This document shows, in pieces, positions 1,178 through 35,084 of a stretch of 35,084 bases of DNA (positions are counted from its first letter, which is position 1; each line of letters opens with the position of its first letter). Under the pieces are notes generated by a model that did no database searches, had not been told where the DNA came from, and saw only the letters and a list, made by a program, of their open reading frames with translations. Source of the stretch: Deltaproteobacteria bacterium (GTDB taxonomy: Bacteria > Desulfobacterota > Desulfobacteria > Desulfobacterales > JAFDMD01). Position numbers and translations under genes: made by a program. Location of the stretch: the NCBI GenBank assembly GCA_019306185.1, contig JAFDMD010000010.1, forward strand, positions 1 to 35,084. The letters are read 5' to 3'.

Positions 1178-1459
1178 AATATATATTTAATCTGTTTTAA
1201 ACGTTTTTGTTTAACATACGCCAAGCAGACGCTTTTAAAAATTTTAAGCCATAATATAATCTAATATAATTCAACGCCTATTGCTATGCGCTATTACTTT
1301 TTCCGCTTTTTTTCACAGACTATAGCCGAATTACTATAATTTAAAATAACATAGGATATCGCGAAGGAGCGGAAGCGAGGAGAAACCCTTTGCTTAAGAG
1401 AAAGGAAATAATATAGGGATTTCGCGCTTCGCTTGACATTACGGGAAATTTTTTTTGTC

Positions 1460-1615
1460 TGTTATTTTAACATAAGTTATTTTTGCTTGTCATTTCGACG
1501 AACGAAGCGCGGAGAAACCCTTTAATAAAAAACGAGGAAGTAATAACAAAGCGATAAATAACAGATATTGGCAAAACCGTTTACGTTTAAAATGCAGGCT
1601 TTTCAACATAGACTA
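1460..1615 (-). repeat. family A/cassette I copy A2 (diverged, one end)
   Basis: cttgtcatttcgacgaacgaagcgcggagaaaccctttaat ... gatattggcaaaaccgtttacgtttaaaatgcaggcttttcaacatagacta. Confidence 0.7.
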
Positions 1616-4059: not shown

Positions 4060-4192
4060 AAATTTCGACGGATAACTTTTCGTAGTTTGCCCGTTTGCCG
4101 CGTTATACTCAAATTTTAACGCTCGGCATCCTACGTTTAAAATTTTTGTATGCCTTAAAACCGAACAAGCTACTTTGTTATCCCCGAAATTT
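4060..4192. repeat. family B long palindromic repeat, copy B1
   Basis: aaatttcgacggataac...gttatccccgaaattt inverted ends; internal cgtagtttgcccgtttgc / aaccgaacaagctactttg shared with other copies. Confidence 0.75.
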
Positions 4193-4336
4193 AAATAAAA
4201 GTCGATGTCCAAAATTTTTATCATCTGATTTCAATGAGCGCAGTAAAAAAAAATTATAATTAATTGTCGAAAAAAATTATGACAATGCATTAAACGTTTT
4301 TACTTGGTTATGCGTATTATTAAAGGCTTATAAATA

Positions 4337-11274: not shown

Positions 11275-11416
11275 ATTTTGTCGGACAACTTCGCATTTTG
11301 CCCGTTTGCAGCGTTCAAAAAATTTTTTAATCCTCGAAATACTCCATGTATTCCTGCGGTTAAAAAATTTTTTCGCCTTGCAACCGAACAAACCGCTTTG
11401 TTATCCGACAAAATTT
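11273..11416. repeat. family B long palindromic repeat, copy B2
   Basis: aaattttgtcggacaac...gttatccgacaaaattt (16/17 matching inverted ends), imperfect complementarity continues to the centre; begins on the pgk stop codon. Confidence 0.85.
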
Positions 11417-11426
11417 TATTATTTTT

Positions 11427-11700
11427 TTAATATTTTCTTGCAAATATTAAAAAAAAGTTTTTAATCGTAAAAAGATTTGTACAAAGAAACAAAGGATAAG
11501 ATCAGAAGTCAATAATAAAGGAATTTCTCACTTCGGTCGAAATGACAGTCCAAGATTACTTTCTGTTATTTTAACATAAGTTGTTTTTGCTTGTCATTTC
11601 GACGAGCAAAGCAAGGAGAAATCCCTTAATAAAAAGCGATAAATAACAGATATTAACAAAACCGTTTGCGCTTAAAAAGCAATTTTTTCAGCATCGACTA
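11427..11700 (-). repeat. family A MITE-like element, copy A3 (one end truncated), contains cassette I at about 11516-11630
   Basis: Ends in tttttcagcatcgacta; internal tgtacaaagaaacaaaggataaga, aaataacagatattaacaaaaccgtttgcgcttaaaaagc. Confidence 0.8.
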
Positions 11701-15116: not shown

Positions 15117-15376
15117 TAGTCGATGCAGAAAAATCTGCATTTTAAGCGTAAACGGTTTTGCCAATATCTATTATTTATCGCTTTTTATTAAGGGAATTCT
15201 CGCCGCGCTCAAAATGACAGGCAAAAATAAAATTTATCAAAATAATAGAAAGTAATTTTTTCCGTCTCTTCTACGAACATTGTTTTTGTTTGTCATTTCG
15301 ACGAGCAAAGCGAGGCGAAATCCCTTAATTAGCACCTTATGCTCTTATCCTTTATTCCTTTGTACAAATCTTTTTG
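15117..15376 (+). repeat. family A MITE-like element, copy A4 (right end missing), contains cassette I at about 15188-15330
   Basis: tagtcgatgcagaaaaatctgcattttaagcgtaaacggttttgccaatatctattatttatcgc shared with other A copies; continues to tttgtacaaatctttttgcga. Confidence 0.8.
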
Positions 15377-15567
15377 CGAAATTTATAATACCCAACCCTT
15401 TAAAACAGATTAAACGGTTTTTGCAAGTCAAAATTTATAAACCGTTATGATTAGATCATAGATAAACGATTTATAAACAAAGCAAAGTAAAAAAATTGTG
15501 AATACTTCCAACTAAAAAAATATTCTAATTATAACGGGGTGAAAATTTTTACAAAAAAAAACAAAAT

Positions 15568-15599: not shown

Positions 15600-15690
15600 T
15601 CATTTTGTATTAGCGACCGTTTAAAAAAAACTGATAATAGTATTTGAACTGATTTTGATTATAACTGATACTGATATGGAGGCGATGCTG

Positions 15691-16254
15691 ATGAAAAAAA
15701 TTTTTACTTTTATTTTTACGATCCTATTTTTAACGGCGCCTTATGCTAATAGCGCCACCGTAGCAAACGTAGTTTTGCCGGATACATACGAAGTTGACGG
15801 CTATTTTTTGGATTTAAACGGAACGGCTTTGCGTAAAAAATTGATAATAAAGGTATATGCCGGCGGTTTTTACGCTCCTTTTAAGATTACGAAACTGGAA
15901 CAGGCTATTAATCCTGAAATACCAAAAGCGATTCGTATGCATTTTATTTATAAATCCGTACCCGGAGATAAGATTCGTAAAATATACGCCAATGTTTATG
16001 AAAAGGACAGATTCGATTATAAAAATTCGGAAACCGCTCAAACTTTCTTAAATTTCTTCTCTTTTGAGATTAAAAAAGGAGATACGCTTGATCTGGTTTT
16101 CCCCGGCAATGGAGATATAAGAGTAGTTTATAACTCGAAAGTAATAGGAAGCGTAAACTCAGCGGATTTATGCGACGCCACTTTAAAGGCTTATTTCGGC
16201 GCAAATTCCATTTCCGGACTCAAAGAGGGGCTTTTGGGATTGAGCGACAAATAA
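15691..16254 (+). CDS. secreted chalcone-isomerase-like family protein (copy 1)
   Basis: Start at ATG 15691 preceded by ggagg; signal peptide MKKIFTFIFTILFLTAPYANSA; LNGTALRKKLIIKVYAGGFYAP typical of the chalcone isomerase-like fold family. Confidence 0.75.
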   Translation: MKKIFTFIFTILFLTAPYANSATVANVVLPDTYEVDGYFLDLNGTALRKKLIIKVYAGGFYAPFKITKLEQAINPEIPKAIRMHFIYKSVPGDKIRKIYANVYEKDRFDYKNSETAQTFLNFFSFEIKKGDTLDLVFPGNGDIRVVYNSKVIGSVNSADLCDATLKAYFGANSISGLKEGLLGLSDK

Positions 16255-16340
16255 AAAATAAAACGAGTTTGCTTAACGGATTGACGACAACTTTAAAGAC
16301 CGGCGCTTTTTTCAACAAAACAATAACGGAGGCAATTTTA

Positions 16341-16904
16341 ATGAAAAAAATTTTTACTTTTATTTTTCTAATAATACTTTTAACGGCGCCTTACGGTATG
16401 AGCGCCACTGTAGCAAACGTGGTTTTGCCGGACACATACAAAGTTGACGATTATTTTTTGATGTTAAACGGAACGGCTTTGCGTAAAAAATTGATAATAA
16501 AGGTATATGCCGGCGGTTTTTATACCCCTTTTAAAATTTCCGGAGTTGATCAGGCTATTAATCCGGAAATCCCAAAAGCTATTCGTATGCACTTTATTTA
16601 TAAATCCGTCTCCGGAGATAAAATTATTAAAGCATATACCAAAGTTTATAAAAAGGACGGATTCGATTATAAAAATTCGGAAGCCGCCCAAACTTTCTTA
16701 AAGCTTTTCTCCTTTGACGTTAAAAAGGATGATACGCTTGATCTGGTTTTTCCAGGCAATGGAGATATAAGAGTAGTTTATAACTCGAAAGTAATTGGAA
16801 GCGTAAACTCGACGGATTTATGCGGCGCCACTTTAAAGGCTTATTTCGGAATAAATTCCATTCCCGGACTTAGAGAAGGCTTTTTGGGGCTGGAAAAAAA
16901 TTAA
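16341..16904 (+). CDS. secreted chalcone-isomerase-like family protein (copy 2)
   Basis: Start at ATG 16341 preceded by aacggaggcaa; protein highly similar to copy 1 over its full length. Confidence 0.75.
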   Translation: MKKIFTFIFLIILLTAPYGMSATVANVVLPDTYKVDDYFLMLNGTALRKKLIIKVYAGGFYTPFKISGVDQAINPEIPKAIRMHFIYKSVSGDKIIKAYTKVYKKDGFDYKNSEAAQTFLKLFSFDVKKDDTLDLVFPGNGDIRVVYNSKVIGSVNSTDLCGATLKAYFGINSIPGLREGFLGLEKN

Positions 16905-16956: not shown

Positions 16957-17033
16957 AATATAATTCCTCTTGTCAAATCTTTTTGTTTGATACAAAAAGC
17001 CTATTTCGATTAAATCAATCCGAAATACTAACC

Positions 17034-17489
17034 GGTCAATGCTGAAAAATCTGTATTTTAAGCGTAAACGGTTTTGCCAATACCTATTATTTATCGCTTT
17101 TTATTAAGGAATTTCTCCTCGCTTTGCTCGTCGAAATGACAAGCAAACTCGGACATAGCCGGATTGATTTAAATCAGCATACGCTTATTACTCAGTCCAA
17201 CAAATCTTTTTAAATCATTTTATTGAAATCTATCTATATGTTAAAATAACAGACAAAAAAAATTCCTGCCTGTCATTCCGAGCGCGGCGAGAAATCCCTT
17301 AATTATTGCCTTCTGCTCTTATACTTTGAGCCTTTCTACAAGTCTTTTTGCGATTAAATAATGAGAATTTTATCTTAAAGTTGCAAAAAAATGTTAAATG
17401 TAATATTCATTCCTTATAAATATATTACCTCATATTTCTTAAAATTTATAATAGTTACAATATATATTATACTTTTTCAGCATTGACTA
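17034..17489 (+). repeat. family A MITE-like element, copy A5, both ends present (456 bp), contains cassette I and block C
   Basis: ggtcaatgctgaaaaat ... tttttcagcattgacta terminal inverted repeats; internal homology to the other A copies. Confidence 0.85.
17144..17235 (+). repeat. block C repeat, copy 1 (inside A5)
   Basis: caaactcggacatagccggattgatttaaatcagcatacgcttattactcag... also at 29729-29820. Confidence 0.8.
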
Positions 17490-27432: not shown

Positions 27433-27596
27433 AGACTTCTTTGATATTTTTATGATACATCCAAATATGATACATCCAAAATCGAAACCTGTTTGATATA
27501 TTAATTTTTAAATATAATCAAGGTATAAAATCGGATTATAGTTATTTTTTCAAATTCTTTACAATGGCAGCAAGAAGACGGGTTTAAAAAAATAAT

Positions 27597-27798
27597 AAAG
27601 GGATTTCTCGCTGCGCTCGAAATGACAAACTTCTTATTCCGGACGAACATTTTTTTACTCTGTTATTTGGACAAACGTTATCTTTGTCTGTCATTTCGAA
27701 CGAGCGAAGCGAGGAGAAATCCCTTAATAAAAAGCGACAAATAATAGATATTGGCAAAACCGTTTACGTTTAAAATGTAAGTTTTTCAGTATCGACTA
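27597..27798 (-). repeat. family A/cassette I copy A8 (one end)
   Basis: tgtcatttcgaacgagcgaagcgaggagaaatcccttaataaaaagcgacaaataatagatattggcaaaaccgtttacgtttaaaatgtaagtttttcagtatcgacta. Confidence 0.8.
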
Positions 27799-28030: not shown

Positions 28031-28160
28031 GCCTAACAAAGCAGTTTGTTAGGTTGCAAGGCAAAAATTTTAACCGGAGTAATAAGGGTAGTATTTCCAG
28101 AATTAAAGTTTTCACATAACGCTGCAAACGGGAAAACTACAAAGTTATCCGCCAAAATTT
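28031..28160. repeat. family B copy B3
   Basis: cctaacaaagcagtttgttaggttgcaaggcaaaaattttaacc ... aacgctgcaaacgggaaaactacaaagttatccgccaaaattt. Confidence 0.75.
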
Positions 28161-28177
28161 AAAAGAGAAAACATAAA

Positions 28178-29585: not shown

Positions 29586-29728
29586 GGAATATTAACGGCT
29601 TACCTTCCCTATAAATATTTATAAAATTTTAAAGCCCCCACAAGCTTACCTTAAGCGCAAGTTGAGTTTTTGCTTCCTAACCAAAACAAAGCCGAAAATC
29701 CGAGACAACAAGCAAAAAGCGGAGCAAA

Positions 29729-29820
29729 CAAACTCGGACATAGCCGAATTGATTTAAATCGGCATACGCTTATTACTCAGCCCAACAAATCTTGTTAAAT
29801 CATTTTATTGGAATCTATCT
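29729..29820 (+). repeat. block C repeat, copy 2 (immediately upstream of A6)
   Basis: caaactcggacatagccgaattgatttaaatcggcatacgcttattactcagcccaacaaatc... as at 17144-17235. Confidence 0.8.
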
Positions 29821-29825
29821 ATAAT

Positions 29826-30036
29826 TAGTCGGCGCTGAAAAACCTGCATTTTAAACGTAAACGGTTTTGCCAATATCTATTATTTATCCCTTAATTAGCG
29901 CCTTCTGTTCTTATCCTTTGTTCCTTTGTACAAATCTTTTTGCGACTAATAATGAGGATTTTATCTTAATATTTGCAAGAAAATATTAAAATCTATAATA
30001 ATTACAATATGTATTATGCTTTTTCAGCATCGACTA
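29826..30036 (+). repeat. family A MITE-like element, copy A6, both ends present (211 bp), lacks cassette I
   Basis: tagtcggcgctgaaaaa ... tttttcagcatcgacta; internal homology to A5/A7 but without the gaaatgac-type cassette. Confidence 0.88.
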
Positions 30037-30039
30037 ATT

Positions 30040-30181
30040 AAATTTTGTGGGATAACAAAGTAGTTTGTTCGTTTGCAAGACGAAAAAAAATTTTAACCGC
30101 AGGAATAGATTAACTATTTCGAGGATTAAATTTTTTTTTCAACGCCGCAAACGGGCAAACTACTTTGTTATCCCCAAAATT
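30040..30181. repeat. family B copy B4
   Basis: aaattttgtgggataacaaagtagtttgttcgtttgcaagacg ... cgccgcaaacgggcaaactactttgttatccccaaaatt; abuts the stop codon of the ABC ATPase gene. Confidence 0.85.
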
Positions 30182-34685: not shown

Positions 34686-34974
34686 TAGTCGATGCTGAAA
34701 AACCTGCATTTTAAGCGTAAACGGTTTTGCCGATATCTATTATTTATCGCTTTTGATTAAAGGATTTCTCCTCGCTTTGCTCGTCGAAATAACAAGCAAA
34801 AATAACTTATGTTAAAATAACAGAAGGTAATCTTGAACTGTCATTTCAACCGAAGGGAGAAATCCCTTAATTAGCGCCTTCCGATCTTATCCTTTGTTCC
34901 TTTGTACAAATCTTTTTGCTATTAAAATTTTTTTAATAATGGGAATTTTATCTTAAAATTTGCAAGAAAATATT
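34686..34974 (+). repeat. family A MITE-like element, copy A7, contains cassette I at about 34756-34872; right end interrupted
   Basis: tagtcgatgctgaaaaacctgcattttaagcgtaaacggttttgcc ... ttgcaagaaaatatta then divergence (gggtctgttgacatttt). Confidence 0.85.
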
Positions 34975-35011
34975 AGGGTCTGTTGACATTTTCGGAATAA
35001 CAGCTTGAAAT

Positions 35012-35074
35012 ACCATCGCAATCTCGTAAATTGTTTTTTTTTACATATAAAAGTAATAATGAGATTGCGATGGT
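35012..35074. repeat. 14-bp perfect inverted repeat near window end
   Basis: accatcgcaatctc (35012-35025) / gagattgcgatggt (35061-35074). Confidence 0.8.
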
Positions 35075-35084
35075 TCGACTAATG

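Follow-up and report, generated by a model that had tools for sequence, protein, structure and literature searches.

A dispersed non-coding repeat family in a Desulfobacterales genome, very probably a MITE derived from an IS5-type insertion sequence

Correia elements of Neisseria are short and non-coding, carry terminal repeats, occur in >100 copies and are mostly intergenic (PMC10969869). BrickBuilt of Porphyromonas gingivalis is a MITE with a repetitive internal structure (PMC4596501), and REP/RAYT (Y1 transposase) repeats are intergenic, palindromic and present in ∼100 copies (PMC2817692). The repeat family described here (family A) contains palindromic ATTAAGGGATTTCTC...GAGAAATCCCTTAAT modules, with module loss, where BrickBuilt contains a minisatellite; its terminal repeats are long and it duplicates its target, unlike REP/RAYT repeats. 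The target duplications led us to reject a REP/RAYT assignment; the host has one weak Y1 match. Family A can be likened by description to Correia elements, with similar copy number and build, whereas the terminal repeats and the target of Correia elements are different. Among insertion sequences (ISs), an IS5-family member (NF033578) of a relative, G041, has 17-bp terminal repeats identical to those of family A, and related ISs in G003 and G018 have left-end homology and a leader hairpin in common with it; in contrast to these ISs, family A has no transposase and its middle is modular and unrelated.

We analyzed a window of 35,084 nt (contig JAFDMD010000010.1) in the context of its host genome (G000; assembly of 2.46 Mb in 170 contigs, estimated contamination 5.87%), two congeners (G001, which is MAG WB1_Bin_3, and G002) and further relatives. 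Family A has the features of prokaryotic MITEs: it is short, without a transposase gene, with sharp inverted ends, target duplication, empty sites, many dispersed copies and, in a relative, an autonomous IS that shares its ends. Very probably it is a non-coding MITE that arose by internal deletion from an IS5-family element whose autonomous form has decayed in the host.

Copy A6, located by sequence and profile search, has both terminal inverted repeats and occupies exactly 211 bp (29826-30036, plus strand), with termini TAGTCGGCGCTGAAAAA and TTTTTCAGCATCGACTA. Its 5′ arm (29826-29889, plus strand; profile E 1.2e-20) consists of the terminal repeat and a conserved AAACGTAAACGGTTTTGCCAATATC core; the outer 52 bp of its 3′ arm (29985-30036, plus strand; profile E 1.6e-13) are homologous to the left end of an IS5-type IS, the basis being that the same profile also matches IS left ends. 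In the copy alignment, A6 has no middle module and only part of the 3′ arm. A6 is an internal deletion derivative; the deletion would have joined TTTAT to CCCTTAATTAG, with ATC common to both break points. The target-site duplication TAATTA can be read directly on the left (29822-29827, the last TA shared with the element end) and on the right (30035-30040), and the orthologous locus of G002 has no A6 at this point. The longest complete copy in the window, A5 (17033-17489, plus strand; 457 bp; sequence, alignment and profile), has a modular middle at ∼17100-17293 and a full 3′ arm (17377-17489, plus strand; profile E 1.3e-22) with the IS left-end homology.

The 5′-arm profile detected seven copies in the window (E 4e-17 to 1e-22), on the minus strand at 1615-1550, 11700-11635 and 27798-27733 and on the plus strand at 15117-15182, 17035-17098, 29826-29889 and 34686-34751. 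Among these seven the 3′ arm exceeded the profile threshold only in A5 and A6; therefore, the other five copies are truncated. Profile searches delimited one that keeps the 5′ arm and some of the middle (1402-1615, minus strand), two without the 3′ terminal repeat (11416-11700, minus strand; 15117-15379, plus strand), one with the 5′ arm and middle (27591-27798, minus strand) and one (34686-34973, plus strand) cut in the 3′ arm by a different multi-copy IS (TAGGGTCTGTTGACA from 34974). We found 10 TTTTTCAGCATYGACTA-like ends in the window at ≤3 mismatches (0.34 expected from shuffles) and seven matches to the GCTGAAAAAYCTGYATTTTAA core (0.03 expected from shuffles). Neither A5 nor A6 contains an ORF of ≥90 aa; the window had no match to Rfam families and no detected tRNAs. 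The sequence-only reading had given A6 this extent and these paired termini, had seen the same architecture in A5, and had described five related copies with one visible end, a common core and an absence of coding capacity; all of this was borne out.

The end of the different IS that is inserted in the last copy fills 34974-35084. A further eight contig ends carry the same TAGGGTCTGTTGACA end and a DDE_Tnp_1 C-terminus, so the assembly is probably interrupted by this IS; its repeat at 34974 probably ends the contig. The DDE_Tnp_1 fragments at contig ends were considered as the partner of family A and rejected, as they belong to this separate IS.

A genome-wide profile search had been proposed from the sequence alone, together with the possibility that the family is confined to this locus. 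The TTTTTCAGCATCGACTA end (≤2 mismatches) occurs 211 times in the 2.46-Mb host genome (106 forward and 105 reverse; reversed control 0+0) and the 5′ core GCGTAAACGGTTTTGCCAATA (≤3 mismatches) 117 times (61+56; control 2, i.e. 2+0), counts that include truncated copies and sister subfamilies. The copies are dispersed over many contigs, in both orientations and with unrelated flanks, and many non-coding repeats of the host genome belong to family A. The same core was found once in one congener and not at all in the other; 117 core copies against 1 and 0 show a lineage-specific burst. A scan of a sequence collection with the core, a collection that may omit near relatives of the host, matched one record, the congener WB1_Bin_3. 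Paired copies are 141-643 bp long. Aligned copies have the terminal repeats, a ∼67-bp 5′ arm, a variable middle made of the ATTAAGGGATTTCTC...GAGAAATCCCTTAAT modules and a 3′ part in common. Of 189 ends read inward, the 5′ type accounts for 85 and the 3′ type for 66; the other 38 belong to neither, and several of them have a common arm beginning GTTAATAAAAAGCGTAAAAAATGAGCCG, which points to related subfamilies with the terminal repeat in common.

Alignment of the flanks, another check proposed in advance, gave no sign of blurred boundaries. Over 190 termini the last base is A in 95% and the last TA is conserved in ≥95%; conservation falls to background within ∼5 bases outside, where the flanks prefer A/T. 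Direct repeats were evaluated in 47 paired copies from ∼0.56 Mb of the host, picked around known ends and paired with up to 2 mismatches against the degenerate end. The longest direct repeat was an exact TAnnTA in 16 copies (5 expected) and an exact TAnnnTA in six (0.4 expected). Where the spacing was equal on both sides, the n's were identical in 22 of 32 copies versus 9.9 by chance (0 of 20000 permutations as good), and the concordance of TAnnTA/TAnnnTA spacing between the two sides had p 0.0002. Direct-only repeats numbered 13 and inverted-only repeats 0; on this ground we rejected the alternative that the ends extend as an inverted repeat and no duplication exists. The target duplication of family A is 6-7 bp at AT-rich TAnnTA or TAnnnTA, a result that replaced a duplication of TA only. 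Subgroups of the IS5 family duplicate 2-4, 8 or 9 bp, and 6-7 bp is not usual; family A provides such a footprint for a branch of IS5-type elements.

Three empty sites fit the proposed insertions. A copy at C80:11585-12059 interrupts a repeated transposase-like gene, probably of IS3 type by motif, with TATATTA on both sides; two uninterrupted copies of this gene on C135 read AAATTATATTAGACC and AAATGATATTAGACC, with a single TATATTA or GATATTA. A family A copy of G001 is absent from the orthologous site of G002, which has one TGTTTA versus two TATTTA in G001: G002 reads GACTATGTTTAAGAGG where G001 reads GACTATATTTA-GTC...GAC-TATTTAAGAGG. The gene before this copy, whose translation looks like a fusion of cysteine synthase and cysteinyl-tRNA ligase, has 95% protein identity in G002. 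The A6 locus fits less exactly. Both neighboring genes are kept in G001 and G002, with no arm match; G002 reads CTATAAAATTTTGTGGG, while the window minus A6 would read CTATAATTAAATTTTGTGGG, so G002 fits as an empty A6 site but is not base-exact.

The sequence-only reading had also suggested looking for a transposase gene bounded by the same terminal repeats, and one was found in G041. An end search in relatives detected exact inverted ends 1475 bp apart on G041:C480; the IS between them (L140:1311-2785, 1475 bp) has the 17-bp ends of family A and encodes a 440-aa protein that matches the IS5 family transposase NF033578 (transpos_IS5_1) with 521 bits (cutoff 275), as well as PF05598 and PF01609, and matches ISNCY_1 with 115.8 bits, below the cutoff of 325. 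By these matches the predicted partner transposase belongs to the IS5 family NF033578. The flanks of this IS are TAAGTA and TAACTA, with no perfect duplication. Similar ends lie beside transposase sequence or contig ends in G003, G018, G047, G050, G066, G102 and G142. In G047 and G003, IS termini of this kind lie within ∼35-140 bp of many contig ends, which suggests high-copy relatives of the parent IS.

Subterminal homology of family A to the IS extends beyond the terminal repeat at the left end of the IS. The 3′-arm profile matches the IS left end in G003 (E 5e-13 over 115 bp) and in G018 (E 5e-6), where a frame for the N-terminal part of a transposase lies downstream. Arms resembling TTTGCAAG and CTTGCAAA stand at ∼+69 and ∼+102 in the ISs of G041, G018 and G003, and likewise in most of the family A copies shown in the alignment. 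By homology, the 3′ arm of family A corresponds to the IS left end, including its leader hairpin. The match of the 5′ arm to the ISs is limited to the terminal repeat plus a few bases; in the profile search of ISs the sequence of this arm beyond ∼20 bp had no match to a known IS right end.

The absence of a visible transposase, noted in the sequence-only reading, holds for the window but not for the whole genome, as fragments of the matching transposase lie elsewhere. The host keeps only C-terminal pieces of it, on C109, C8, C67 and C37; those on C109 and C37 have stops, those on C8 and C67 are short remains, and none continues as a complete transposase. Downstream of the C67 piece, 48 bp match a segment of C108 at 96% identity; this segment terminates in TAGTCGGCGCTTAAAAA, a terminus of family A type at C108:24073, and the match connects the dead transposase with family A ends. 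A single fossil right end was observed in the host, and it is unlike the family A 5′ arm; a left-end-like relic is present at C144:9999. The two congeners had no transposase match. An intact copy may possibly be hidden at an assembly break in the host. In two places, C109:415 and C37:1333, the 5′ end of a family A copy directly borders the fossil transposase, at an identical position in both; the related fossils have no TAnnTA target at these junctions.

The following course of events would account for family A as a MITE. The 3′ arm of family A is the left end of the IS, extending as far as the leader hairpin that immediately precedes the start of the transposase, and both ends of family A keep the 17-bp terminal repeat of the IS. 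An IS5-type transposase supplied in trans would recognize these ends and insert copies at AT-rich TAnnTA/TAnnnTA, duplicating 6-7 bp; ∼100 copies would accumulate in the host lineage, and the autonomous element would then decay, leaving the transposase fragments as its only trace in the host assembly. Because no intact IS with family A ends was found in the host or the two congeners, mobilization in trans by an IS5-type transposase is what we infer. Divergence and the fossils suggest that the burst came before the death of the transposase, and family A appears to be inactive at present. The reading of the sequence alone as a non-autonomous mobile repeat dispersed in trans agrees with the sharp ends, the duplications, the empty sites and the G041 IS; its alternative, retention as an RNA/DNA structural element, is not needed, though it may also hold. 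The MITE can be traced to its parent through the IS left end, the host fossils, the intact parent type in relatives and the empty sites in close relatives. Family A adds a new member to a familiar class of elements, and both its parentage and its insertion footprint are documented unusually well; a few literature searches returned no earlier description of this family, which is weak evidence.

Two other origins have practically no weight. A MITE of IS630/Tc1 type inserting at TA would agree with the TA...TA ends and the AT-rich flanks, but would leave a 2-bp TA instead of the 6-7-bp duplication; no DDE_3 transposase was found in the host or the two congeners, and the IS with family A ends is of IS5 type. 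It is hardly conceivable that local duplication or an effect of sequence assembly, with no transposition, produced the family: seven copies in 35 kb and the fragmentation of the assembly into 170 contigs, with its estimated contamination, could be taken that way, yet the many contigs, both orientations, unrelated flanks, target duplications and empty sites speak against it.

A different proposal gives the repeats a role of their own that keeps them in place, as intergenic hairpins serving as 3′-end, terminator or mRNA-processing signals, mobility being only historical; we consider this unlikely. The specific version, in which family A was kept after transposase death as distributed 3′-end signals between convergent genes, the IS leader hairpin and the palindromic modules providing the signal, is distinctly improbable. 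By crude ORF calls, the 39 complete copies with both neighbors called lie in 21 tandem, 16 convergent and 2 divergent gaps; the convergent share (16/39) exceeds that of other gaps (31/214, p 0.0004) and that of all gaps (p 0.003), though this bias rests on those crude calls. Moreover, convergent gaps are also the least harmful places for insertion, and low harm is the simplest reason for the bias. None of the 39 complete copies overlaps a called ORF. Compared with dinucleotide shuffles, folding is strong in A5 (z −7.0) and weaker in A6 (z −3.3), but terminal repeats together with nested palindromes make any MITE fold strongly. The profile shows good conservation of the 5′ arm among copies; against a retained function, many copies are truncated or without the middle or one arm, and the congeners manage with one or no core copy.

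Other repeats were observed in the window. A second intergenic palindromic repeat (GGGATAACAAAGTAGTTTG ... CAAACTACTTTGTTATCCC) adjoins A6 at 30037-30180 and occurs also at ∼4079-4198, 11283-11421 and 28063-28165; at the G002 site orthologous to the A6 locus it takes the form of a near-perfect hairpin. The middle of A5 (17140-17238) and the sequence directly upstream of A6 (29725-29823) share a 99-bp repeat with 94% identity, and similar sequence flanks copy C73:3923. Finally, a 300-bp direct repeat, 86% identical (15678-15977 and 16328-16627), falls within the neighboring ORFs 15655-16254 and 16170-16904 and is perhaps a tandem gene duplication.
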